From: Streptomyces sp. 6-11-2
Lineage (GTDB): Bacteria > Actinomycetota > Actinomycetes > Streptomycetales > Streptomycetaceae
DNA: 64,000 nt
Assembly (NCBI RefSeq): GCF_006540305.1
Contig: NZ_BJOR01000001.1
Span: forward strand, 6,758,001 to 6,822,000
Direction: 5' to 3'
Position numbers and translations under genes: made by a program
In this document: positions 49,618 through 63,835 of the stretch, piece by piece
Position numbering within the stretch: position 1 is the stretch's first letter
Layout of the letters: every line of letters begins with the position of its first letter
The notes under the pieces: model-generated
Seen by the model: only the letters and a program-made list of their open reading frames with translations
Told to the model about the DNA's origin: nothing
The model's database searches: none

Positions 49618-52319
<2,702 letters not shown>

Positions 52320-52986: not shown

Positions 52987-54726
52987 ATGAGTGCACCGCA
53001 CGGAAAGGCCGCCGGTCATGGAAAGGCCGCCAGCCCTTTCAAACAACCCAAGGCCGTCTGGGCCGTCGCGTTCGCCTGCGTCATCTCGTTCATGGGCATC
53101 GGCCTGGTCGACCCGATCCTGCCCGCCCTGGCCGAGAGCCTGCACGCCACGCCCAGCCAGGTCTCCCTGCTGTTCAGCAGCTACCTGATCGTCACCGCGG
53201 TCGCGATGCTGATCGTCGGCTGGTTCTCCAGCCGCTTCGGAGCCAAGCGCACCCTCGTCACCGGCCTGGCCGTCATCGTCGTCTTCGCCGCCCTGGCCGG
53301 CTCCTCGGGCTCCATCAACGGCATCGTCGGCTTCCGCGCCGGCTGGGGGCTGGGCAACGCCCTGTTCATCGCCACCTCGCTGGCCGTCATCGTCGCCTCG
53401 GCCAGCGGCGGCTTCGGCGGCGCGATCATCCTCTACGAGACCGCGCTCGGCCTCGGCATCGCCGTGGGCCCGCTGCTCGGCGGCGAACTGGGCGCCATCA
53501 GCTGGCGCGGCCCCTTCTTCGGCGTCGCCATCCTCATGGCCGTCGCGCTCATAGCCACCCTGGCCTTCGTCCCGAACCTGCCGAAACCGGAACGCCGCAC
53601 CTCGCCCCTCGCCCCCCTCAAGGCACTGCGCCACCGCGGCCTGCTGACCATGGGCATCATGGCCCTGCTGTACAACTGGGGCTTCTTCACCATGCTCGGC
53701 TACGCGCCGTACCCGATGGAGCTCGGCGCCCACCAGCTCGGGCTGGTCTTCACCTGCTGGGGCCTGCTCGTGGCCGCCTTCAGCGTCTTCTTCGCCCCGC
53801 GCCTTCAGGCCCGCTACGGCACCGCCCCCGTCCTCTACGCCAACCTGCTCGGCCTGAGCATCGTGATGGCCGTCATCGCGGCCGGGGTCGCCAGCCCCAC
53901 CGTGGTCATCGTGGCGGTCATCGTCAGCGGCGCGTTCATCGGCATCAACAACACCCTGACCACCCAGGCCGTCATGCTCGTCTCCCCGGTCGAGCGGCCC
54001 GTCGCCTCCTCCGCGTACGGCTTCCTGCGGTTCATCGGCGGCGGCCTGGCACCCTACGTCGCCGGCAAGCTCGCCGACGCCACCGACCTCAGTGTCCCGT
54101 TCTACCTCGGCGCCGCCACCTTCCTCCTCGCCATTCCGGTGCTGGCCTTCGGCCACCGGCTGCTGCGGGAGGCCGAGACGCGCACCGGTGAAGGGGAGCC
54201 CGTCACACCGACGTTCACGTCCGTCGGCACCGCGGCGCCCACCGGCACGCCGCCCGTGATCGTCGCCGTCGGCGCCCACGAAGGGGCAGCCGTGATCGTC
54301 GACGCCGCGGCACGGCTCGCCCGGGACACCGGCAGCCCCCTGGAGGTCGTGCACGTCCAGCAGACCGCCGTCGTCGAGGAACAGGCGGCCGACGCCGAGG
54401 ACTTCGCGCAGGCCCACGCCACCGTCACCGCCCACCTCGACCGGCTCGCCGCCCATGGCGTCGTCGCGCGGGGCCAGATCCTCGGCAGCGTCGGCGACCA
54501 CGCGGCGGCCGGCCGCGCCCTGGCCCGGCACGCCGCCGAGGTGGGCGCGCGTGCCGTGGCGGTGGGCCGTTCGCCGCGCGGCCCGCTCGCTCAGTTCGCC
54601 GACGGCAGTTTCACCGCGGCCCTGACCCACGCCGCCACCTGCACCGTGGTCCTCGTCGACCCCGGCAGCGAGCCGCGGCCGCTGACCGCGGCCATGTTGC
54701 CGGAACTCCGGGGCGCGGCGGGCTGA
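52987..54726 (+). CDS. MFS exporter with C-terminal universal-stress-like domain
   Basis: A 579-residue protein. Residues ~20-395 form a 12-helix drug:H+ antiporter domain (MGIGLVDPILPALAESLHA, FSSRFGAKRTLV, GLGIAVGPLLGGELG). After a Thr/Pro linker, residues ~425-560 form a soluble alpha/beta domain (PPVIVAVGAHEGAAVIVDAA, HAAEVGARAVAVGRS, GSFTAALTHAATCTVVLVDP) with the strand order and terminal nucleotide-loop pattern of universal stress proteins. Such a fusion could couple efflux to nucleotide or stress state. It lies next to and converges on the diaminopropionate/NRPS operon and may export its product. Confidence 0.85.
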   Translation: MSAPHGKAAGHGKAASPFKQPKAVWAVAFACVISFMGIGLVDPILPALAESLHATPSQVSLLFSSYLIVTAVAMLIVGWFSSRFGAKRTLVTGLAVIVVFAALAGSSGSINGIVGFRAGWGLGNALFIATSLAVIVASASGGFGGAIILYETALGLGIAVGPLLGGELGAISWRGPFFGVAILMAVALIATLAFVPNLPKPERRTSPLAPLKALRHRGLLTMGIMALLYNWGFFTMLGYAPYPMELGAHQLGLVFTCWGLLVAAFSVFFAPRLQARYGTAPVLYANLLGLSIVMAVIAAGVASPTVVIVAVIVSGAFIGINNTLTTQAVMLVSPVERPVASSAYGFLRFIGGGLAPYVAGKLADATDLSVPFYLGAATFLLAIPVLAFGHRLLREAETRTGEGEPVTPTFTSVGTAAPTGTPPVIVAVGAHEGAAVIVDAAARLARDTGSPLEVVHVQQTAVVEEQAADAEDFAQAHATVTAHLDRLAAHGVVARGQILGSVGDHAAAGRALARHAAEVGARAVAVGRSPRGPLAQFADGSFTAALTHAATCTVVLVDPGSEPRPLTAAMLPELRGAAG

Positions 54727-54798: not shown

Positions 54799-55851
54799 TC
54801 ACCGGTCGTGTGGCGCGCGCCGCGTGCGTGAGCGGGGGTCGACGGCCAGGGAGCCCGCGGTGACCTCCTCGGGGCCGGATTCCGGCCGGTCGTGCCGGTC
54901 GCCGAGGAACGCGTCGCCGTACAGGTCCTCGAGCCAGGAGGACTGGTAGATTGTGTCGAGGTAGCGCTCCCCGAGGTCCGGGGCGATGGCCACGGCGGTC
55001 AGGGCGCGGGCGTCGTTGCGCGACAGCCAGTCCATCGCGCCGCTGACCACCGTCCCGGTGGACCCGCCGAACAGGAAGCCGCGCCGGGCCAGTCGGTGGC
55101 AGGCGCGAATGGTGTCCGCCTCCTCGACCCGGACCACCTCGTCGACGAAGGACTCGTCGAGCAGCGGCGGGCGCATGCTCATGCCCAGGCCGGGGATCAT
55201 CCGCCGGCCCGGCTTGCCGCCGAAGGCCACCGAGCCGACGGTGTCCACCGCAACGATCCGCACCGGCCGGTGCCACTCGCGGAAGAAGCGGGCACAGCCC
55301 ATCAGCGTGCCCGTGGTGCCCGAGCCGACGAACAGCACGTCGAGACGGGGGAACTGGAGGGCGATCTCCGGCGCGGTCTTGCGGTAGTGGGCCCCCCAGT
55401 TGTTCGGGTTGGTGTACTGGCTGAGCCAGACGTACCGCTCGTCGGAGGCGCACAGCGCGCGGACGTAGTCGATCCGCGCGCCGAGGAAGCCGCCGTTGGC
55501 ATCCAGGTCGGCGATGACGTGCACCTCGCTGCCCAGCGCCTCCATCAGCAGCCGTGCGGACAGGTTGCAGCGGGAGTCCGTCACGCAGAGGAACCGGTAG
55601 CCCTTGCTGGCGGCGATCATGCTGAGCGCCACACCGAGGTTGCCCGACGAGGACTCGATGAGGATCGAGCGGGGCGTCAGGAGGCCGTCCCGTTCCGCGG
55701 CCTCCACCATCTCTGTCGCGGCCTTCATCTTGATCGAGCCGGCGAAGTTGAAGCCCTCGCACTTCAGGTAGAGCGAGCGCCCGAATGTCGGCCGGAGATC
55801 AACATAGAGTTGGCCTTCGTTGAAGGCGTGGGGGGCTGAGATGACGGGCAC
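54799..55851 (-). CDS. SbnA/VioB-like PLP enzyme, 2,3-diaminopropionate synthase subunit
   Basis: A 350-residue cysteine-synthase-fold enzyme. LYLKCEGFNFAGSIKMKAA has the PLP Lys, ILIESSSGNLGVALSMIA the substrate/PLP-binding loop, and VLFVGSGTTGTLMGCARFF the phosphate loop. In staphyloferrin B (SbnA) and viomycin (VioB) such enzymes join O-phospho-serine with glutamate to form ACEGA, the precursor of L-2,3-diaminopropionate. GTG 55851 has GGAGG six bases upstream. It lies 37 bp after the SbnB-like gene and is the last gene of the operon. The ~40-residue C-terminal tail is not conserved. Confidence 0.9.
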   Translation of the reverse strand: MPVISAPHAFNEGQLYVDLRPTFGRSLYLKCEGFNFAGSIKMKAATEMVEAAERDGLLTPRSILIESSSGNLGVALSMIAASKGYRFLCVTDSRCNLSARLLMEALGSEVHVIADLDANGGFLGARIDYVRALCASDERYVWLSQYTNPNNWGAHYRKTAPEIALQFPRLDVLFVGSGTTGTLMGCARFFREWHRPVRIVAVDTVGSVAFGGKPGRRMIPGLGMSMRPPLLDESFVDEVVRVEEADTIRACHRLARRGFLFGGSTGTVVSGAMDWLSRNDARALTAVAIAPDLGERYLDTIYQSSWLEDLYGDAFLGDRHDRPESGPEEVTAGSLAVDPRSRTRRAPHDR

Positions 55852-55888
55852 GCTGGCCTCCTGATGCCTGGGCCGAGGGTAGGAACGT

Positions 55889-56968
55889 TCAGCCGTATCG
55901 GCGCAGCTCATGGAAGAAGTCGTCGATGACGTGCAGGTTTCCGGCGCGGGCCACCTCGTCGTAGACGTACTTGCCGACGGCGAGGTCGAGGATCCCCAGG
56001 CCGAACGGCGAGAAGATCACCGGCCGGTCGGTGGGCGGATCCACCCGCCCGGTCATGACGTCGTCGAGGGTGCCGTGCAGGAAGTCCCGGCCGCCGGTGA
56101 GCTGCTCGGTCAGGTGCGGCGAGGTGCCGGCCTTCAGGCAGTGCTCGACGTCGTCGACGAAGTTGGCCGCGGAGAGCAGCACCTGGGGGGCGAGATCGCG
56201 CAGCGACACGTGCAGGACGACCGGATGGTGGGTGAACCAGGCCGGGTCGGTGACGTGCGGCTCGCCGGCGATCGTCGCGAAGACCACCAGGTCGCTGGAG
56301 CGGATCAGGTCCTCGGCGCTCTCGTGGACGGTGACCTCGGGGGCGTGCCCGGGGGCACCGGTCTGGCGCAGGTAGCCGCAGAACCCGGCGGAGCTGTCGG
56401 CGGACACGTCGTACACGCCGACGCTGTCGAAGCTGAAGCCGGTGCCGGTCAGGAAGGTGTGGATGTAGCGCGCGATCAGGCCGGTGCCGAAGAAGCCGAC
56501 CCGGGTGGGGCGGGGCCGGTTGCGGGTGAGCCAGTCGGCGGCCAGCGCCGCGGACGCGGCGGTCCTGGTGGCGCTGATGATGGAGCTCTCCAGGCAGGCG
56601 AACGGGTAGCCGGTGTCGTGGTCGTTGAGGACCAGGACCGCCGAGGCCCGGGGCAGGCCGGCGCCGACGTTGGCCGGGAAGCTGGAGATCCACTTCAGTC
56701 CGTCCACGCCCGCCGACCCGCCGACGGAGGCCGGCAGCGCGATGATCCGCGCCGTGGGACGGTCGGTGAAGCGCAGGAAGTACGACGGCGGGTTCACCGT
56801 GCTGCCGGAGCCGTGCAGCCGGTACGTCGCCTCGACCAGCTCCGTGAGCTGCTTCTCACGCCCTTCGAGCGCTTGCCGGACCTGGGCGCCGGAGATCACG
56901 GCGAAGGTCGGCACCGGGGTGGGCCGGGAGGTGGTCGGGTCGGTGGCGGGGGAGGTCACGGGGGTCAT
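55889..56968 (-). CDS. SbnB/VioK-like N-(1-amino-1-carboxyethyl)-glutamate dehydrogenase (ornithine cyclodeaminase family)
   Basis: A 359-residue member of the ornithine cyclodeaminase/mu-crystallin family. VDGLKWISSFPANVGAGLPR binds substrate and VGFFGTGLIARYIHTFL is the NAD-binding Rossmann loop. SbnB-type enzymes oxidatively split ACEGA into L-2,3-diaminopropionate and 2-oxoglutarate. The adjacency of an SbnA homologue makes this assignment firm at pathway level. The ATG overlaps the stop of the oxygenase gene (ATGA at 56965-56968). Confidence 0.9.
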   Translation of the reverse strand: MTPVTSPATDPTTSRPTPVPTFAVISGAQVRQALEGREKQLTELVEATYRLHGSGSTVNPPSYFLRFTDRPTARIIALPASVGGSAGVDGLKWISSFPANVGAGLPRASAVLVLNDHDTGYPFACLESSIISATRTAASAALAADWLTRNRPRPTRVGFFGTGLIARYIHTFLTGTGFSFDSVGVYDVSADSSAGFCGYLRQTGAPGHAPEVTVHESAEDLIRSSDLVVFATIAGEPHVTDPAWFTHHPVVLHVSLRDLAPQVLLSAANFVDDVEHCLKAGTSPHLTEQLTGGRDFLHGTLDDVMTGRVDPPTDRPVIFSPFGLGILDLAVGKYVYDEVARAGNLHVIDDFFHELRRYG

Positions 56969-57969
56969 CGCCGGATTCCCTTCGGGGTCGGGCCGTACTC
57001 GGCCAGGCGCTGGGGCTCGGCCATGGCGACGAGTACCTGTCGGTCACCGGTGAAGGCCTCCCTGCTGTGCGCGGTGCGGATGTTGTCGACCAGCATCAGG
57101 TCGCCGGACTGCCAGGGCTCGCGTTGGGTGTGTGCCTCGTAGGTCTCGTTGAGCAGCTGCACGACCTCCTCGCCGATCGGTGCGCCGTCGCCGAAGAGGG
57201 TGTTGAACGGCAGCCCGTCCGCGCCGTACTCGTCCACCAGGTACTCGCGCACCTCCGGGGCCAGCGTCCACTCGTTGAGGAAGGCGATCTGGTTGAACCA
57301 GCAGCGCCGGCCGGTGACCGGGTGCCGGACCACGGCGCAGCGCCGCTGCCGGGTGCGCAGGCCGCCGTCCGGCTGCCAGGCGAACTCGATGGCATGGGCG
57401 CGGCAGTAGTTCTCGACGGTCTCGCGGTCGTCGGTGCCGAACGACTCCGCCAGGGACGCCCCGATCTCGTCGTTGTAGCTGCGGGTGAGCAGCCAGCCCT
57501 CACGCTCGAAGCGCTCGGTCAGCTCCGCGGGCAGCGCGTTCAGCACCGCCTCCGCGTCGGCCACCGCGGTCGCCCCGCCCCCGGCGGGCGCGGTCGGGCA
57601 CGCGAACAGCATCAGCCCGGGCACCTTCAGCGCGTAACTCAGCTCGTGGTGCATGCACATGGGCTGGTTGGCGGGCCAGGCGGTGGAGGAGTACAGACCG
57701 GGGCCGTAGGACTCGCGGGGGGCGAAGGCCTCCCGTTCCGGCATCAGCGGGCCGGCCAGTTCCGTGAAGACGGCGGAGATCTGCTCGGGCTCCCGCAGTC
57801 CCAGGCCGCGTACGAGCACGGCTCCGTGCTCGGCGACCCGGGCCCGCAGTGTCTCGCGGTGCTCGGCCGCCCATCCGGTCGCGTCCGCAGAGGTCTCGAC
57901 ACGCAGGACGGGCGGTCTGTCCGGTCGCAGCTCCACCTCCAGTACCGAAGCCGGGGACGAGAACGACAT
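56965..57969 (-). CDS. TauD/TfdA-family Fe(II)/2-oxoglutarate oxygenase, SyrP-like
   Basis: A 334-residue non-haem iron oxygenase. The facial triad is H107-x-E109 (MCMHHELSY, Glu in place of the more usual Asp) plus the distal His of DNIRTAHSRE near residue 308; the conserved Arg is in the following MAEPQR. Similarity is to the SyrP-like group that beta-hydroxylates amino acids held on NRPS carrier domains. It sits directly downstream of an A-T-TE protein, so the amino acid loaded there is the obvious substrate. It uses 2-oxoglutarate, which the SbnB-like enzyme releases. Confidence 0.87.
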   Translation of the reverse strand: MSFSSPASVLEVELRPDRPPVLRVETSADATGWAAEHRETLRARVAEHGAVLVRGLGLREPEQISAVFTELAGPLMPEREAFAPRESYGPGLYSSTAWPANQPMCMHHELSYALKVPGLMLFACPTAPAGGGATAVADAEAVLNALPAELTERFEREGWLLTRSYNDEIGASLAESFGTDDRETVENYCRAHAIEFAWQPDGGLRTRQRRCAVVRHPVTGRRCWFNQIAFLNEWTLAPEVREYLVDEYGADGLPFNTLFGDGAPIGEEVVQLLNETYEAHTQREPWQSGDLMLVDNIRTAHSREAFTGDRQVLVAMAEPQRLAEYGPTPKGIRR

Positions 57970-58022
57970 CTCGGTTTCCTTTCGTTCGTCACCAACGAGG
58001 CCGGGGTGGTCCTCAGCGGTGT

Positions 58023-61000
58023 TCAGGAGGAGGCCAGCAGGTCGGCGGCGTCCAGTACGGCCGCCGCCACCGCGGCCGGGCGGGTGCGTGGGAAGTAGTG
58101 GCCGCCGTCGGTGAGTTCACGCAGCGCCACCTGCTCGGCCAGGAACTCCCAGTCCCGCCAGTGGTCCTGGAAGCCCGCGGTGCTCGGGTCATCGGCGGCG
58201 ACGACCACGGTGACCGGCGCGGCCAGTCTCACCGCCGGCGGCCTGTCCAGGGCGTCGGCGAAGCAGCGGTGCGCCAACACGCAGTCGTGCCGGTAGGCGG
58301 CCCCGACGCGCTCGGCGTGCTCCGCGTTCAGCTCGCCGAGTTCCAGGTGGCCGCCGTCCGCACCGAGCCGGGCGGCGATCTCGGCGTCGCCGCGCTCGGT
58401 CAACTCGGTGGCTGCGGCGCGTCGTTCGGCGGCCGTGCCGAGCAACTGCGCGCCGAGGAACACCCGGGTCACCTCCACTCCGAGCGCGGAGAGCCTCCGG
58501 GCGGTCAGCAGGGCGGGCGCGGTGCCGGAGGAGTGGCCCCAGAGCATGACCCGCTTCAGGCCGCGCCCGGCGATCTCCGTGGCGACCCGCTCCACCACCT
58601 GTTCCAACGGCGCGAACGGCTCCTCGCCTGCGGCCAGGTCGTGTCCGGGCAGGTCCACCGCGTGGACGGCGACGCCGCTGCCGGCCAGGGCGCTCGCCAG
58701 CGGCTGGAAGTTGACCGCGTTGCCGCCCGCGTGGGGGAAGCACACCAGCGCGCACTCGGGGGAATCCTCGCCCGCCGACAGCGGCTGGAGCAGCTCCGGC
58801 CGCTGCCGGGCCGTGCCGTCGAGGCACGCCGCGAGTTCGGCGAGCACCGGGTGCCGGGTGATGTCCTTGAGGGACACCGCGCGGTTCAGGGCGATGGTGA
58901 GCTTCACCGCCGACAGGGAGGTCCCGCCGCGGTCGAAGAAGTGGTCCCGTCGGCCGATCGTCTGCCCGGGCAGGCCCAGCAGTTCCGCCCAGGCGGCCGC
59001 CAGCCTCCGCTCGGTCGGGGTGCGCGGGGCGTCGTCGGACTCGCCGGAACCGGCTTCCTCCGCCGTCTGCTCGCCCCGTTCGGCCAGCGCGGTCAGCGCC
59101 TTGCGGTCGATCTTGCCGTTGGCGGTCAGGGGCAGCCCGTCCTGCCAGTGGAAGGCCGACGGGACCATGTACGCGGGGAGCACGGCACCGAGCGCGTCGC
59201 GCAACTCCTCCGGATCGAGTCGCCGGCCGGTGTGGAAGGCGATCAGATGCGTGCTGCGGCCCGCGAGTTCGGCGACGACCACCGCGCCGTCCCGGACCCC
59301 GGGAACGCGCAGCAGGGTGTTCTCGATCTCCCCGATCTCGATGCGGAACCCGCGGATCTTGACCTGGCTGTCCCGGCGGCCGAGGAACTCCAGCTTCCCG
59401 CCGGGGTGCCAGCGGCCCCAGTCGCCCGCCAGGTACAGCCGCTCGCCCGGCCGGTGCGGGTCCTCGCGGTAGGCCTCACGGGTCCGCTCGGGGTCGTTGA
59501 CGTATCCGCGTCCCACGCACACGCCGGAGAAGGCGATCAGCCCGGGTGCGCCGAGCGGCACGGGCGAAAGGTGCTCGTCGACCACGTAGACGCGCACGTT
59601 GCCGACCGGGCGCCCCAGCAGCACCCGTTCCGGAACCGCGTCCATGACCTCGTGGTTGGTGTCGTCCGAAGTCTCCGTCAGCCCGTAGGCGTTGACCAGC
59701 TTGATGCCGGGCTGGAGGGCGAACCAGCGCTGGACGAGTTCCCGCTTCAGCGCTTCGCCGGTCACCGACACGCAGGCCAGGTCGGGCAGTTCGCGCGGGT
59801 GCCGCTCCAGGTACGAGGCCACCACCTCCAGATAGGAGGGCACGACCTGCGCCACGGCGACCCGGCCGCGCACCAGCGTGTCGACGAACCGCTCCACGTC
59901 CACGACGGCGTCCTGCTCGACCAGCAGGGTCCGCCCGCCCACCAGCAGCGCGGCCAGCAGTTGCCACAGGGAGATGTCGAAGCACTGCGGAGCCGTCTGT
60001 GCCACCACCCGCCCGGGACCGATCCCCAGATCGTCGATCTTGGCGTACAGGTGGTTGAGCATGCCGGCGTGCTCGCACATCGCTCCCTTGGGCTCGCCGG
60101 TGGAGCCCGAGGTGAAGTAGATGTACGCCAACTGGCCCGGGGAGACCTCCACTCGGAGGTCGTCGTCCGCGTGCTCCTGCGCGTACGCCGTTTCGATCAG
60201 CAGCTTCTCGGTCCCCGGCGGCAGCGCGGCCAGCGCCTCGTCCAGGGTGCCGGTGCTGCCCGGCTCGGTCAGCACCAGCCGGCAGCCGGCCCGGGCGAGC
60301 GTCGCCTTGATGCGCCCGGCCGGGAAGTGCGGCTCGATCGGCAGATAGGCACCGCCGGCCTTGAACACCGCTAGTACCGCCGCCAGCCAGTCGAGGTTGC
60401 GTGCGGTGACCACGGCCACCACGTCCTCCCGGCCCAGACCGCGCTCCAGCAGCGCGCGGGCCAGCCGGTTGGCCCGCGCGTTCAGCTCCCCGTACGTCCA
60501 CGAGCGCTCGCCGTGCACCGCGGCCACCGCTTCGGGGTGGGCCCGTGCCCGCTCCTCGAAGAGCTCGTGCGCCCGCGCGGACGGCAGTTCCCGATGGGGT
60601 CCGGCCAGCCCCTCCAGCTGGTCGCGCGTCTCCTCGGGCGACAGCAGGCTCTGCCGGGTGTGCTCGGCGTCCACGTCGGCGGTCATCAGGCGCAGCGCGG
60701 TCAGGTGATAACCGCAGACCCGGGCCGCGGCCTCGGCGTCCAGCACGTCCGTGCGGTACCGCAACCGTGCCGTCAGCAGCCCGTCCCGCTCGCCGAAGGC
60801 CATCCGCAGCACCGCCCCGGCGGGCAGGGCGCCGCCCCCGGTGTCCGCCGGGTCGAAGACGGCCTCGAACAACGGTCCTGGGAGTCCCAGCTCCCGGCGC
60901 AGCTCGTCCACGGGGAAGTCCCGGTGCGCGAGCAGGGCCGCCGCGACACGGTGGGTGTCGAGCACCAGCCGGCGCCAGGACCCCGGCGCGACGGCCGGCC

Positions 61001-61292
61001 GGCAGGGCAGCGGGCCGGCGTCGGGGCCCGTGACACAGCCCGTCACCACGTCCTGCTCACCGGACAGCGCGGCCAGCACCTTGGCGTGCGCGGCCAGCAG
61101 GACCGTGCTGGACGGCACCCCCAGCTCCGCCGCGAGGGCGCGCACCGCCCGGGCCGTCCCGGCCGGCACGGTCTCCTCGTGTTCGGCGTCACCGGCCACC
61201 GGCTCGCGTGCCCACCGCGGAACGGCGGTGAACCCGCCTGCGGTGAGCACCTCGCTCCAGAACTCCCTGTCCGCTGCCACGAGCGCTCCCAT
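58023..61292 (-). CDS. NRPS: half-condensation / adenylation / carrier / thioesterase
   Basis: A 1089-residue synthetase. Residues 1-225 resemble only the second half of a condensation domain; no HHxxxDG motif is present. The A domain (~235-735) shows A3 YIYFTSGSTGEPKG (391-403), A5 NAYGLTE, A7 YLAGDWGRW, A8 SQVKIRGFRIEIGEIE and A10 LPLTANGKIDRKAL. My hand-read specificity residues are D439 I440 W443 Q482 S509 T511 A535 D543 D544 K727; the two acidic residues suggest a basic amino acid such as diaminopropionate or Arg. The carrier Ser is S792 (FFDRGGTSLSA). A type II-like TE (CFPHAGG, GHSSG 919-923) ends it. ATG 61292 has AGGAAGG upstream. Confidence 0.9.
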   Translation of the reverse strand: MGALVAADREFWSEVLTAGGFTAVPRWAREPVAGDAEHEETVPAGTARAVRALAAELGVPSSTVLLAAHAKVLAALSGEQDVVTGCVTGPDAGPLPCRPAVAPGSWRRLVLDTHRVAAALLAHRDFPVDELRRELGLPGPLFEAVFDPADTGGGALPAGAVLRMAFGERDGLLTARLRYRTDVLDAEAAARVCGYHLTALRLMTADVDAEHTRQSLLSPEETRDQLEGLAGPHRELPSARAHELFEERARAHPEAVAAVHGERSWTYGELNARANRLARALLERGLGREDVVAVVTARNLDWLAAVLAVFKAGGAYLPIEPHFPAGRIKATLARAGCRLVLTEPGSTGTLDEALAALPPGTEKLLIETAYAQEHADDDLRVEVSPGQLAYIYFTSGSTGEPKGAMCEHAGMLNHLYAKIDDLGIGPGRVVAQTAPQCFDISLWQLLAALLVGGRTLLVEQDAVVDVERFVDTLVRGRVAVAQVVPSYLEVVASYLERHPRELPDLACVSVTGEALKRELVQRWFALQPGIKLVNAYGLTETSDDTNHEVMDAVPERVLLGRPVGNVRVYVVDEHLSPVPLGAPGLIAFSGVCVGRGYVNDPERTREAYREDPHRPGERLYLAGDWGRWHPGGKLEFLGRRDSQVKIRGFRIEIGEIENTLLRVPGVRDGAVVVAELAGRSTHLIAFHTGRRLDPEELRDALGAVLPAYMVPSAFHWQDGLPLTANGKIDRKALTALAERGEQTAEEAGSGESDDAPRTPTERRLAAAWAELLGLPGQTIGRRDHFFDRGGTSLSAVKLTIALNRAVSLKDITRHPVLAELAACLDGTARQRPELLQPLSAGEDSPECALVCFPHAGGNAVNFQPLASALAGSGVAVHAVDLPGHDLAAGEEPFAPLEQVVERVATEIAGRGLKRVMLWGHSSGTAPALLTARRLSALGVEVTRVFLGAQLLGTAAERRAAATELTERGDAEIAARLGADGGHLELGELNAEHAERVGAAYRHDCVLAHRCFADALDRPPAVRLAAPVTVVVAADDPSTAGFQDHWRDWEFLAEQVALRELTDGGHYFPRTRPAAVAAAVLDAADLLASS

Positions 61293-61306
61293 TGAATGGC
61301 CCTTCC

Positions 61307-63835
61307 TCATTTCGCCGTCGGCGCGGCGGGGTTTCCGCCCCATTCCGCCTTCGCGGGGACTTCCTCGCCCTTCATGAGGAAGGAATCGGGCGCCAGTACG
61401 GCCCCGTCGCCCACCGTCACGCCGTAGTGCACGTGTGCGCCGACCCCGAGGGTGCAGTCGGATCCGAGCCTGGTGTGGTCCGACTTGAAGGTGCCGTCCT
61501 CCTGCGAGTGGCACTGGATCTTGCTGCCCACGTTCAGCGTGCAGTCGTCCCCGATGACGGTGAGCGTCCGTTCCGTGATGTAGCAGCCGTCGTCGAAGAC
61601 CCTGCGGCCGATGCGCACGCCCATCAGGCGCCAGACCAGACGCTTGAAGGGGGTCCCGTTGAACAGCTCGAGCCACTCGTCCGGCACCTTCCACAGCCGC
61701 TCGTGCCACCAGAAGTACGGGTCGTAGATGGAGCACAGGCGGGGGCGCAGGGAGCGGAAGACGGCGATGGCCCGTTCCACCAGGATGAAGTAGCCGGCCG
61801 TGATGGCGACGGTCAGGGCCAGATAGCCACCGATCACCACGTGACCCAGCGTGCCGTACAGGTCGACGCAGGCCAGACCGACTCCCGTGAGCACGGCGGC
61901 GAGCACCCAGCGCAGCAGCAGGAAGAGTGCGATGGAGCGGAGGTTGTAACGGTTCTTGGCGGCGAGGTTGCGGCGCAGGGCGTCGCCCGTCCTGAGGTGG
62001 TCGAAGCGGGTGTCGCGCTCCACCGAGCGGGGGATCTCGAAGGACGGTGAGCCGAGCAGCCCGACCCCTTCGCGCAGTTCGCCGTCGAGGGGGACCATCA
62101 CCTTCGTCGCGAGCAGGCAGTTGTCGCCCGTTCTGGCTCCCGCCGGATAGGCGATGTTGTTGCCGAGGAAGTTGTGCGCGCCGATCGTCGCCCGGCTCAC
62201 CCTGAAGGAGGTGCTGGAGTAGTCGGCGTTGATGACGGAGAGCCCGTCGGCCACCATCGTCCCGCTGCCGACGGACACCAGGTACGGCGTCTCGTGCTGC
62301 ACCTCGGTGCCGAAGTTCGAGCCGGTCTGCTCCACCTGGGACAGGTCGTATCCGAGGCGGCGCAGATAGGGGACGATGTAGGAGCTGTCGCCGAAGAGCC
62401 AGGGGAAGAACTTGAGGTTCGTCAGGCCGGCCACTGCCCGGTGCATCGCGTACTGGAAGCCGTAGAGCGGGTAGACCCGGTCGGGCTTGACGGCCAGGCT
62501 CAGCAGCCGGGGCACCGCGAACATCAGGGCCAGGCCCACGACGACCCCGCCGAAGAACAGCACGGCGGACACGACCAGGGTGTCGGTGAGGAACTCCGGC
62601 ACCGTGGACAGGGTCGTCCCCGCGTCCAGCCGGCCGCGCAGCGCCGGTACCTCCGCGAACAGCATGTAGACGCCGCCGACGCCGAACGGCAGGTACAGCA
62701 GGAACAGCTGGAGCAGGGAGGACACCCCGAAGACGGCCCGCCGCAGCGTGCCGCACCGGGTCGGCTCGACCCTGATGTGGTCGACCGACGTGGGCTGTGC
62801 CGGGGAGCCGTGCCGGCGTTCGCCGGCCGGCACGTGCTGGCCCCGGTACAGTGCGGAGGCGTGGCCGAGCTGTGAGCCGTCGCCCATCGAGGTGTCGATG
62901 TCGAGCACCGACTTCTCGCCGACGAAGGCGTCCCGGCCGATGTCGATCCGGCCGGTCTGGATGCGCCCGGCGTGCGCCCGGTAGCACAGGAAGAACGCGT
63001 CCTTGCGGATCACCGTGCCCGCGCCGATGGTGAGCAGGTCGGTGCAGACCGGCACGGAGTGGGAGAGGATCGTGACGTCCTTGCCGATCCGCGCGCCCAG
63101 GGCCCGCAGGTACAACACGTACACGGGGTTTCCGATGAAGAGGATCATCGGATTCGCGTGCAGGAGCACCTTGACGATCCAGAAGCGGAGATAGGCCGCA
63201 CCCCACACCGGGAACTCGCCCGGCTTCCAGCGGCCGACGAGAATCCACTTCGCCGCGATCGGGAAGACGCACAGGAGGAGAAAACCGCCGGTCCCGAACA
63301 ACAGGGACCGGAGATAGATGTCGGCGAGGCCCGATGCCGAGCCGACCCACTCGTAGGCCCGTGCGGTGGCCATTCCGGCGACGAACGAATATCCGAGGAA
63401 AATGAGCAACTGAGCCGTGCCGCACAGCACGTAGCGAGCCGTGCTCGGTGTCGTCGCGGCCGGTGCCGGCGCCTCGTCCGCGGGTGCCGCCGGGGCCGCC
63501 GGAGCGGGTGCGCCGGCGAGGGGTGGAGCGAGCTCCGCGAGGGCTTCCGCCAGGCTGCGGACCGTGGGGTTGCGGTAGATGTCCTTCATGGACACCGGCG
63601 GCAGATCTGATCTCTTCCGGACCCGCGCGCAGAACTGCGCCATGACCAGGGAGTTGGCGCCCAGGTCGTCGAAGAAATGACTTTCGGGCGGAACGTGTTC
63701 GGCCTGTACGACGTCCGCCAGGATTCCGGCGAGCTCCCTCTCGGTGTCCGCCGTCGCCGGGAGGGAGCGTGCCTGCCCGGCGATCACGGGCTCGTCCGGC
63801 CCGGGCATCAAGATGTCGGCAGACTTCTCCACCAT
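61307..63835 (-). CDS. Carrier protein fused to a membrane hexapeptide acyltransferase-like domain (Pls-type NRPS terminal domain)
   Basis: About 842 residues starting at ATG 63835 (AGGGAG five bases upstream; a TTG at 63874 is less likely). Residues ~30-105 are a carrier domain with S62 in FFDDLGANSLVMAQF. After an Ala/Pro linker come three pairs of membrane helices alternating with soluble parts that carry left-handed beta-helix (hexapeptide) repeats, e.g. ALGARIGKDVTILSHSVPV, AGTVIRKDAFF and IGDDCTLNVGSKIQCHS. This is the layout of the C-terminal half of epsilon-poly-lysine synthetase (NRPS terminal domain, TIGR02353-like), which strings amino acids into isopeptides. Unlike Pls it has no adenylation domain of its own; the next gene must supply one. 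Confidence 0.85.
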   Translation of the reverse strand: MVEKSADILMPGPDEPVIAGQARSLPATADTERELAGILADVVQAEHVPPESHFFDDLGANSLVMAQFCARVRKRSDLPPVSMKDIYRNPTVRSLAEALAELAPPLAGAPAPAAPAAPADEAPAPAATTPSTARYVLCGTAQLLIFLGYSFVAGMATARAYEWVGSASGLADIYLRSLLFGTGGFLLLCVFPIAAKWILVGRWKPGEFPVWGAAYLRFWIVKVLLHANPMILFIGNPVYVLYLRALGARIGKDVTILSHSVPVCTDLLTIGAGTVIRKDAFFLCYRAHAGRIQTGRIDIGRDAFVGEKSVLDIDTSMGDGSQLGHASALYRGQHVPAGERRHGSPAQPTSVDHIRVEPTRCGTLRRAVFGVSSLLQLFLLYLPFGVGGVYMLFAEVPALRGRLDAGTTLSTVPEFLTDTLVVSAVLFFGGVVVGLALMFAVPRLLSLAVKPDRVYPLYGFQYAMHRAVAGLTNLKFFPWLFGDSSYIVPYLRRLGYDLSQVEQTGSNFGTEVQHETPYLVSVGSGTMVADGLSVINADYSSTSFRVSRATIGAHNFLGNNIAYPAGARTGDNCLLATKVMVPLDGELREGVGLLGSPSFEIPRSVERDTRFDHLRTGDALRRNLAAKNRYNLRSIALFLLLRWVLAAVLTGVGLACVDLYGTLGHVVIGGYLALTVAITAGYFILVERAIAVFRSLRPRLCSIYDPYFWWHERLWKVPDEWLELFNGTPFKRLVWRLMGVRIGRRVFDDGCYITERTLTVIGDDCTLNVGSKIQCHSQEDGTFKSDHTRLGSDCTLGVGAHVHYGVTVGDGAVLAPDSFLMKGEEVPAKAEWGGNPAAPTAK

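Follow-up and report, generated by a model that had tools for sequence, protein, structure and literature searches.

What product would be made by five tightly spaced genes that combine enzymes for 2,3-diaminopropionate (Dap) supply with an oxygenase, a small synthetase and a membrane protein of the Pls/PosA type? We have considered this question for a cassette at positions 54799-63835, minus strand, of a 64,000-nucleotide stretch of DNA (the window), which covers positions 6758001-6822000 of contig C1 in the 8.73 Mb, three-contig genome of Streptomyces sp. 6-11-2 (G000). The genes are transcribed in the order E, D, TauD, SbnB, SbnA; their coordinates, strand and domain calls in the original prediction, which was made from the letters of the window, are all upheld. 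From the comparisons below, we lean to the answer that the cassette makes and joins oxidised Dap, and that its product would be an isopeptide-linked oligomer or a short amide of oxidised Dap.

A self-contained unit recurring in Streptomyces

We have scanned public genomes with E as the query; of the 213 relatives obtained, we kept the best 80, which come from Streptomyces in 79 cases and from Kutzneria in one. Together with the window and the other cassette of the host genome, which lies on contig C2 (L005), they form a set of 82 loci. All five genes are present in 79 of these loci, and the remaining three (L014, L070 and L071) are cut by contig ends. That is, the co-occurrence of the five families across genomes, which had been proposed as a check, is indeed found. 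In the window, E and D are separated by 14 nt and D and TauD by 53 nt, while TauD and SbnB overlap by 4 nt and SbnB and SbnA by 23 nt, the start codon of sbnA being uncertain. Overall, 74 of the 79 complete loci are collinear with spacings from -60 to 600 nt; the exceptions are four loci with larger gaps and L005, where sbnA is divergent, the thioesterase is missing and an IS256-type transposase gene lies nearby.

We have also compared the flanks of the loci, up to 10 kb (shorter where contigs end), with our own codon-position gene caller and a grouping at 45% identity. Any one flanking gene family is found in at most 10 of the 80 loci, and a fragment of a larger cluster was rejected on this ground. 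The original prediction had named as a possible refutation that the cassette might be part of a cluster of the viomycin or alanosine type. The recurrence of the five genes together, with no conserved flanks, does not bear this out; the flank-family comparison (80 loci), which did not search for individual viomycin or alanosine genes, gives no further genes of such clusters kept beside the set.

We have further calculated the ratios of non-synonymous to synonymous substitution rates (dN/dS) by the simple NG86 method, for each of the five genes against six comparison loci that we picked ourselves. All 30 values fall between 0.20 and 0.56, which points to purifying selection on each of the five genes. 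A relic or a chance grouping was rejected in view of these values, all less than 0.6, and of the 79 loci with five genes. One copy, L086, has a short D (401 amino acids), a short SbnB (182 amino acids) and an altered His in TauD.

In addition, 101 drawn genomes of the genus were searched with TauD, so that the following figures count TauD alone and not E. A TauD of at least 64% identity occurs in 30 of the 101 (host included, two partial matches), and the four loci inspected from three of these genomes (G033, G068, and G040 twice) all have the five genes. Another 12 genomes, four of which were inspected, have TauD at 54-60% identity, and 47 have no match at an E-value of 1e-60 or less. Overall, the cassette is a self-contained, recurring unit that is common in Streptomyces and not unique to the host. 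The absence of common flanks and the second copy on C2 suggest movement of the cassette.

Dap supply and the adenylation code of D

SbnA (54799-55911) is a putative pyridoxal phosphate (PLP)-dependent beta-replacement enzyme and SbnB (55889-56968) a putative dehydrogenase, both of the type used in Dap synthesis. In Staphylococcus aureus, SbnA and SbnB turn phosphoserine and glutamate into Dap and 2-oxoglutarate. The window proteins score 381.6 bits with TIGR03945 and 403.8 bits with TIGR03944, above the curated cut-offs of 349.95 and 326.9, respectively, as the earlier assignment implied. The nearest PDB sequences are SbnA itself (5d87/5d84) and then CmnB (8if7) for SbnA, and 4m54, a 'putative ornithine cyclodeaminase', followed by the alanine dehydrogenase 1omo and CmnK for SbnB. 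Only two SbnA genes in the host genome exceed the family cut-off, one per cassette. Among the 79 of 80 SbnA sequences that were aligned (one was cut and excluded), the PLP lysine, Lys61, is found in 79/79. Three residues, Arg132, Tyr152 and Ser185, are named for phosphoserine selectivity in passages of PMC12414870, and the equivalents of the first two are kept in 79/79 and 77/79 sequences, respectively.

Such a pair is what the cassette shares with the Dap subclusters of viomycin, capreomycin, staphyloferrin B and Bacteroidetes lipopeptides, as far as the consulted part of PMC9248904 describes them; CmnB and CmnK are among the nearest solved structures. Different from these subclusters, the cassette is a five-gene unit without a multimodular nonribosomal peptide synthetase (NRPS) or a siderophore synthetase.

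The protein that should use this Dap is D (58023-61292, 1089 amino acids), which by Pfam consists of a half condensation (C), an adenylation (A), a carrier (T) and a thioesterase (TE) domain. We have read the ten specificity positions of its A domain in an alignment of 80 of the 82 D proteins (L086 and L071, the latter at a contig end, were too short). The code DIWQSTADDK is identical in 80/80. It is also found in all four inspected loci that have the other genes without Pls (L109-L112), although their A domains are only 65-69% identical to that of D. Actually, of the 32 A-domain rows in our table, each covering more than 380 residues, eight have this code (L109-L112 and four further five-gene cassettes) and 24 have other codes, although one of these, at 16122 in L113, is unlikely to be a genuine A domain. 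Another of the 24 has the near code DIWQATCDDK, in a Kitasatospora cluster (L104) with an SbnA-like fusion below the SbnA cut-off. Since the invariant code is linked to SbnA/SbnB genes even where E is lacking, the A domain of D very probably activates Dap. According to the part consulted of a 2025 survey (PMC12283262), Dap and diaminobutyrate codes are alike, and DVWQMIGDDK, which agrees with our code at six of ten positions, is assigned to beta-OH-modified diaminobutyrate. Five code strings, in ten- or eight-letter form, were not found in the open-licence literature.

Other domains of D and the oxygenase

The condensation match of D, at 26.1 bits, stays below the Pfam cut-off of 30.6; it extends from position 192 to 278 of a profile of 456. 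The catalytic HHxxxDG motif is absent from D, and HHxxxD is found within the first 300 residues in only one of 82 orthologues. As the match starts at position 192 and the motif is lacking, the half C domain should not form peptide bonds. In work on siderophore hydroxylases, a half C domain is said to be a docking platform for the oxygenase. The carrier serine, Ser792, is present in 80/80 D proteins.

The TE domain (58023-58790) has a Ser nucleophile, predicted from GHSSG in the window, with Ser at the same column in all 72 of the 80 copies that have a TE; these Ser921 and His1065 positions are both kept in 72/80, and the domain is missing from the other eight. Its nearest PDB sequences are ObiF1 (95.9 bits), the thioesterase 6vap (52.2), the NRPS thioesterase 8w2c (50.2), RifR (44.9), 3qmw and the surfactin thioesterase subunit 2k2q. 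The SulM paper (PMC11298585), in its consulted part, names accession 8w2c and places ObiF1, type II and 8w2c thioesterases together with type II editing enzymes. SulM, which acts on a Dap-ended peptide, and ObiF1 are thus among the nearest solved relatives, with the difference that they use a catalytic Cys where D has Ser. Because the nucleophile is Ser rather than Cys and the domain is dispensed with in eight D proteins, we consider editing or unit release more probable than ring formation as a role that all copies would have in common.

The oxygenase gene (56965-57969) encodes 334 amino acids of the TauD family, Fe(II)/2-oxoglutarate-dependent oxygenases, with 148.3 bits to PF02668. Carrier-dependent TauD-type hydroxylases (SyrP-like) have an HxD/E...H iron site and an Arg for 2-oxoglutarate, and this motif is present: H107, E109 and R310 occur in 79/79 and H301 in 78/79 of the aligned proteins (79 of 81; two are truncated by contig ends). 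Among PDB chains, At3g21360 (1y0z) and 9yut come nearest to it. Since TauD accompanies D both in the cassettes and in L109-L112, where E is absent, its substrate probably sits on the carrier of D. Two Pseudonocardia plasmid loci have TauD genes adjoining Pls genes, with no D gene. In one Pseudonocardia locus (L095, 7210-11463), a Pls protein with apparently three tandem carriers and a diverged A domain is followed by a TauD 55% identical to that of the window. More distant TauD relatives (46-47% identity; L113-L116) stand beside A domains with DAQDLGLVDK or DAQDFGLVDK, and the NRPS loci L113-L115 have two consecutive A domains that share a code (DALQYGGGFK or DALQSGGGYK) next to a TauD relative.

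E as a Pls domain without its adenylation domain

E (61307-63835, 842 amino acids) is composed of a T domain and a terminal membrane domain that matches TIGR02353 (Pls/PosA) over its full length (profile 1-695 of 695) with 818.6 bits, against a cut-off of 423.1. The earlier description of E as a carrier-bearing Pls-type membrane protein, and of D as a half-C/A/T/TE synthetase, is borne out by Pfam. E measures 814-887 amino acids in all 82 loci and has T only, the A domain being in D; by this architecture, it is a Pls polymerase domain minus the A domain. Pls/PosA synthetases are characterised by three helix pairs and three left-handed beta-helix domains; the hydropathy profile of E has three paired regions and one weak segment. 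The structure model is weak (mean pLDDT 52), with usable matches from residues 198-354 only; the first soluble domain matches hexapeptide acetyltransferases, and the rest of the model is of low confidence. The nearest named relatives of E are from Streptomyces.

With the known Pls/PosA synthetases (PMC10522769, in part), E shares the full terminal domain behind a carrier, the difference being that no A domain is fused to it. A close parallel is the poly(L-diaminopropionic acid) synthetase of Streptomyces albulus PD-1 with NjxA/NjxB (PMC4668381), where Dap comes from SbnA-/SbnB-like enzymes and a Pls-type terminal membrane domain is proposed to join it. However, that synthetase has A, T and Pls in one protein and the Dap genes do not lie close to it, whereas the cassette keeps A-T(-TE) and T-Pls separate; an oxygenase, half C domain or thioesterase is not described in the consulted part of that source, and the cassette includes a TauD gene. 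A comb-like polymer of Dap only is known from a Streptomyces sp., and the passages citing it in PMC10522769 and PMC9606270 mention no oxidation. In the streptothricin pathway, ORF19/ORF18 similarly use an A domain on one protein to extend isopeptide units on the carrier of another, but with beta-lysine and with a stand-alone A domain that makes the bond; a Pls domain is not mentioned in that part of PMC9606270.

Several other Pls-type genes were met. E-type genes occur on plasmids of Streptomyces sp. CdTB01 (L097, 9001-11541) and S. mirabilis (L094, 8794-11529), the former near copC, DUF305 and cation transporter genes. Plasmids of Paenarthrobacter (L092) and Skermanella (L093) have fused A-T-Pls genes with the code DFECLSVVTK; DUF305 and CcdA genes are near the former, and near the latter are a multicopper oxidase gene and, just upstream, ectB, which would supply 2,4-diaminobutyrate. 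The host itself has a third Pls-type gene (C2, 236738-239041) in an open frame of 1445 amino acids, 31-37% identical in three pieces.

Four-gene units without Pls

The loci L109-L112 have D, TauD, SbnB and SbnA in cassette order with no Pls match, amid other NRPS genes or regulators. Nearby are a protein of adenylation, ketoreductase and carrier domains (A-KR-T) in L109, an NRPS with two methyltransferases in L110, and a tryptophan halogenase and a P450 in L112; in L111, a phosphoglycerate dehydrogenase gene adjoins sbnA. The thioesterase is missing from three of the four units. In L109 (12641-13639) and L112 (6287-7786), a second TauD-family gene lies immediately downstream of sbnA. Gene trees separate the five-gene copies from the four-gene loci with support of 0.44 for the A domain and 0.84 for TauD; those of SbnB (0.73) and SbnA (0.94) were rooted on the four-gene loci and are hence less informative. 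With this modest support, the trees suggest that an already existing unit for Dap loading and oxidation acquired a Pls protein in one event.

Genes around the cassette

On one side, the neighbours in the window are a MarR gene and a convergent gene (52987-54726) for a major facilitator superfamily (MFS) transporter with a universal stress protein domain, which is absent from the flanking families common to at least 8 loci. Beyond E lie genes for a MIP channel, a lamin-tail protein, an alcohol dehydrogenase, oxidoreductases, a LacI regulator and others. A Fur-family gene is found in the window at 49618-50055, about 4.7 kb from the cassette. The neighbours look unrelated to the cassette. A search for sigma-70-type promoters, uninformative for this genus, found none.

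Proposed pathway and competing explanations

The gene content, recurrence and intactness of the cassette, its invariant code and the linkage of this code to the Sbn genes can be read from the sequences themselves. From them we infer each chemical step, the chain length and the oxidation site. SbnA and SbnB would make L-Dap, which the A domain of D would activate and load onto its own carrier and probably, in trans, onto that of E as well. TauD would then oxidise Dap on the D carrier with 2-oxoglutarate, probably at C-beta, as is expected from its family; SbnB would itself supply the 2-oxoglutarate, provided that the reaction is S. aureus-like. E would take the units via its own carrier and join them at the membrane by isopeptide bonds into a short oligomer, either polycationic or mixed. 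It is the sole likely peptide-bond former of the set, since the half C domain of D lacks the catalytic motif. The thioesterase would edit or release units and should be non-essential, being missing from some complete cassettes. The original prediction of a product built on Dap, probably oxygenated and linked up by the membrane domain, is supported by the scores of SbnA, SbnB and Pls above their cut-offs and by the code linkage. The pathway is further in line with the recurrence and collinearity of the five genes without shared flanks, the one SbnA gene per cassette in the host, the survey code for modified diaminobutyrate, the phosphoglycerate dehydrogenase gene of L111, the TauD genes next to Pls in Pseudonocardia, the conserved catalytic residues and the purifying selection.

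Several observations weigh against this pathway. The equivalent of Ser185 in SbnA is Gly in 79/79, and NjxA/NjxB of S. albulus are reported to make Dap from serine and ornithine and none from phosphoserine and glutamate (PMC4668381, in part); because of both, 2-oxoglutarate release by SbnB is not assured. In the passages of PMC10522769, the code of known polyamino-acid synthetases has a conserved Asp at position 1 and Glu at position 3, while D has Asp and Trp in 80/80, with no Glu at position 3. No D/A, TauD or Sbn genes are annotated within about 9 kb of the E-type genes of L097 and L094, and the flanks of the 80 loci have no conserved exporter, regulator or resistance gene. Finally, if Dap were hydroxylated at C-beta while its amine is free, the result would be an unstable carbinolamine, which may lose ammonia or water. 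Of the beta-hydroxylated product suggested earlier, oxygenation is probable and beta-hydroxylation only a possibility; an aldehyde, imine or enamine unit is another possible outcome of the TauD reaction.

Among other explanations, we give some credence, clearly less than to the above pathway, to the release of free oxidised Dap by D, TauD and TE, with E adding one unit to another molecule as a single amide or ester. Quinoxaline-type pathways beta-hydroxylate a carrier-bound amino acid by a P450 and release it by a type II thioesterase (PMC4052310, in part), the TE of D is nearest to the group of ObiF1, type II and 8w2c thioesterases (PMC11298585), four-gene units are found in other NRPS clusters, and recombinant Pls also forms chain-end esters (passages of PMC9606270). 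However, the absence of TE from eight D proteins and three Pls-free units speaks against such release, as does the full polymerase-type domain retained in E. It is rather doubtful that Dap is only the partner in a mixed peptide, with some other amino acid being activated by the A domain and hydroxylated by TauD. The TauD relatives of L113-L116 would fit this idea, as no SbnA/SbnB match is found in their 20-kb stretches and the codes beside them are of a type that we take to be for glutamine, but two kinds of cluster have the same code as D in their copies linked to SbnA/SbnB, the latter being either above the cut-off or 62-73% identical, and the set has no second A domain.

Less credible still is a product built on 2,3-diaminobutyrate, made from threonine by SbnA/SbnB in the manner of the homologous DabA/DabB of the friulimicin, laspartomycin and mureidomycin pathways (PMC4052310, in part). 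Against it, SbnA and SbnB exceed the cut-offs of NCBIfam models named for Dap, which may or may not exclude DabA/DabB; the Arg132 and Tyr152 equivalents are kept, and the sbnA gene of L111 is next to one for phosphoglycerate dehydrogenase. The known role of SbnA/SbnB in staphyloferrin B, together with plasmid Pls genes of which some lie near copper or other metal genes, could also point to a Dap-containing metallophore. This seems very improbable, because each flanking family, and so any receptor or metal transporter, is limited to at most 10 of 80 cassettes, Pfam finds no siderophore synthetase family in the set, and the Fur-family gene of the window is some distance away.

Going beyond the oxidised Dap oligomer or amide as such, we tentatively suggest that the cassette might make a new class of polyamino acid, an isopeptide oligomer of oxidised Dap in beta-hydroxy, dehydro or aldehyde-type form. 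In the same speculative vein, it might come from a split polymerase, with one A domain for two carriers on two proteins, where the oxygenase edits the monomer before polymerisation. No paper on the five-gene set or its product was found in the open-licence literature, which lacks most subscription papers, and a published product is possible.

Implications

With TauD of at least 64% identity in 30 of the 101 sampled genomes, the cassette may be a common small biosynthetic unit of the genus. If the proposed pathway is true, it would be, as far as the literature found goes, the first case of a Pls-type polymerase that receives its units in trans and is coupled with an oxygenase, and would open a route to tailored polyamino acids. 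Known polyamino acids are antimicrobial and some enter cells, according to passages of PMC9606270. In addition, the four-gene unit gives a rule that reaches beyond the cassette: in several peptide clusters that are unrelated to one another, an oxidised Dap residue is to be expected from DIWQSTADDK together with SbnA/SbnB and TauD.

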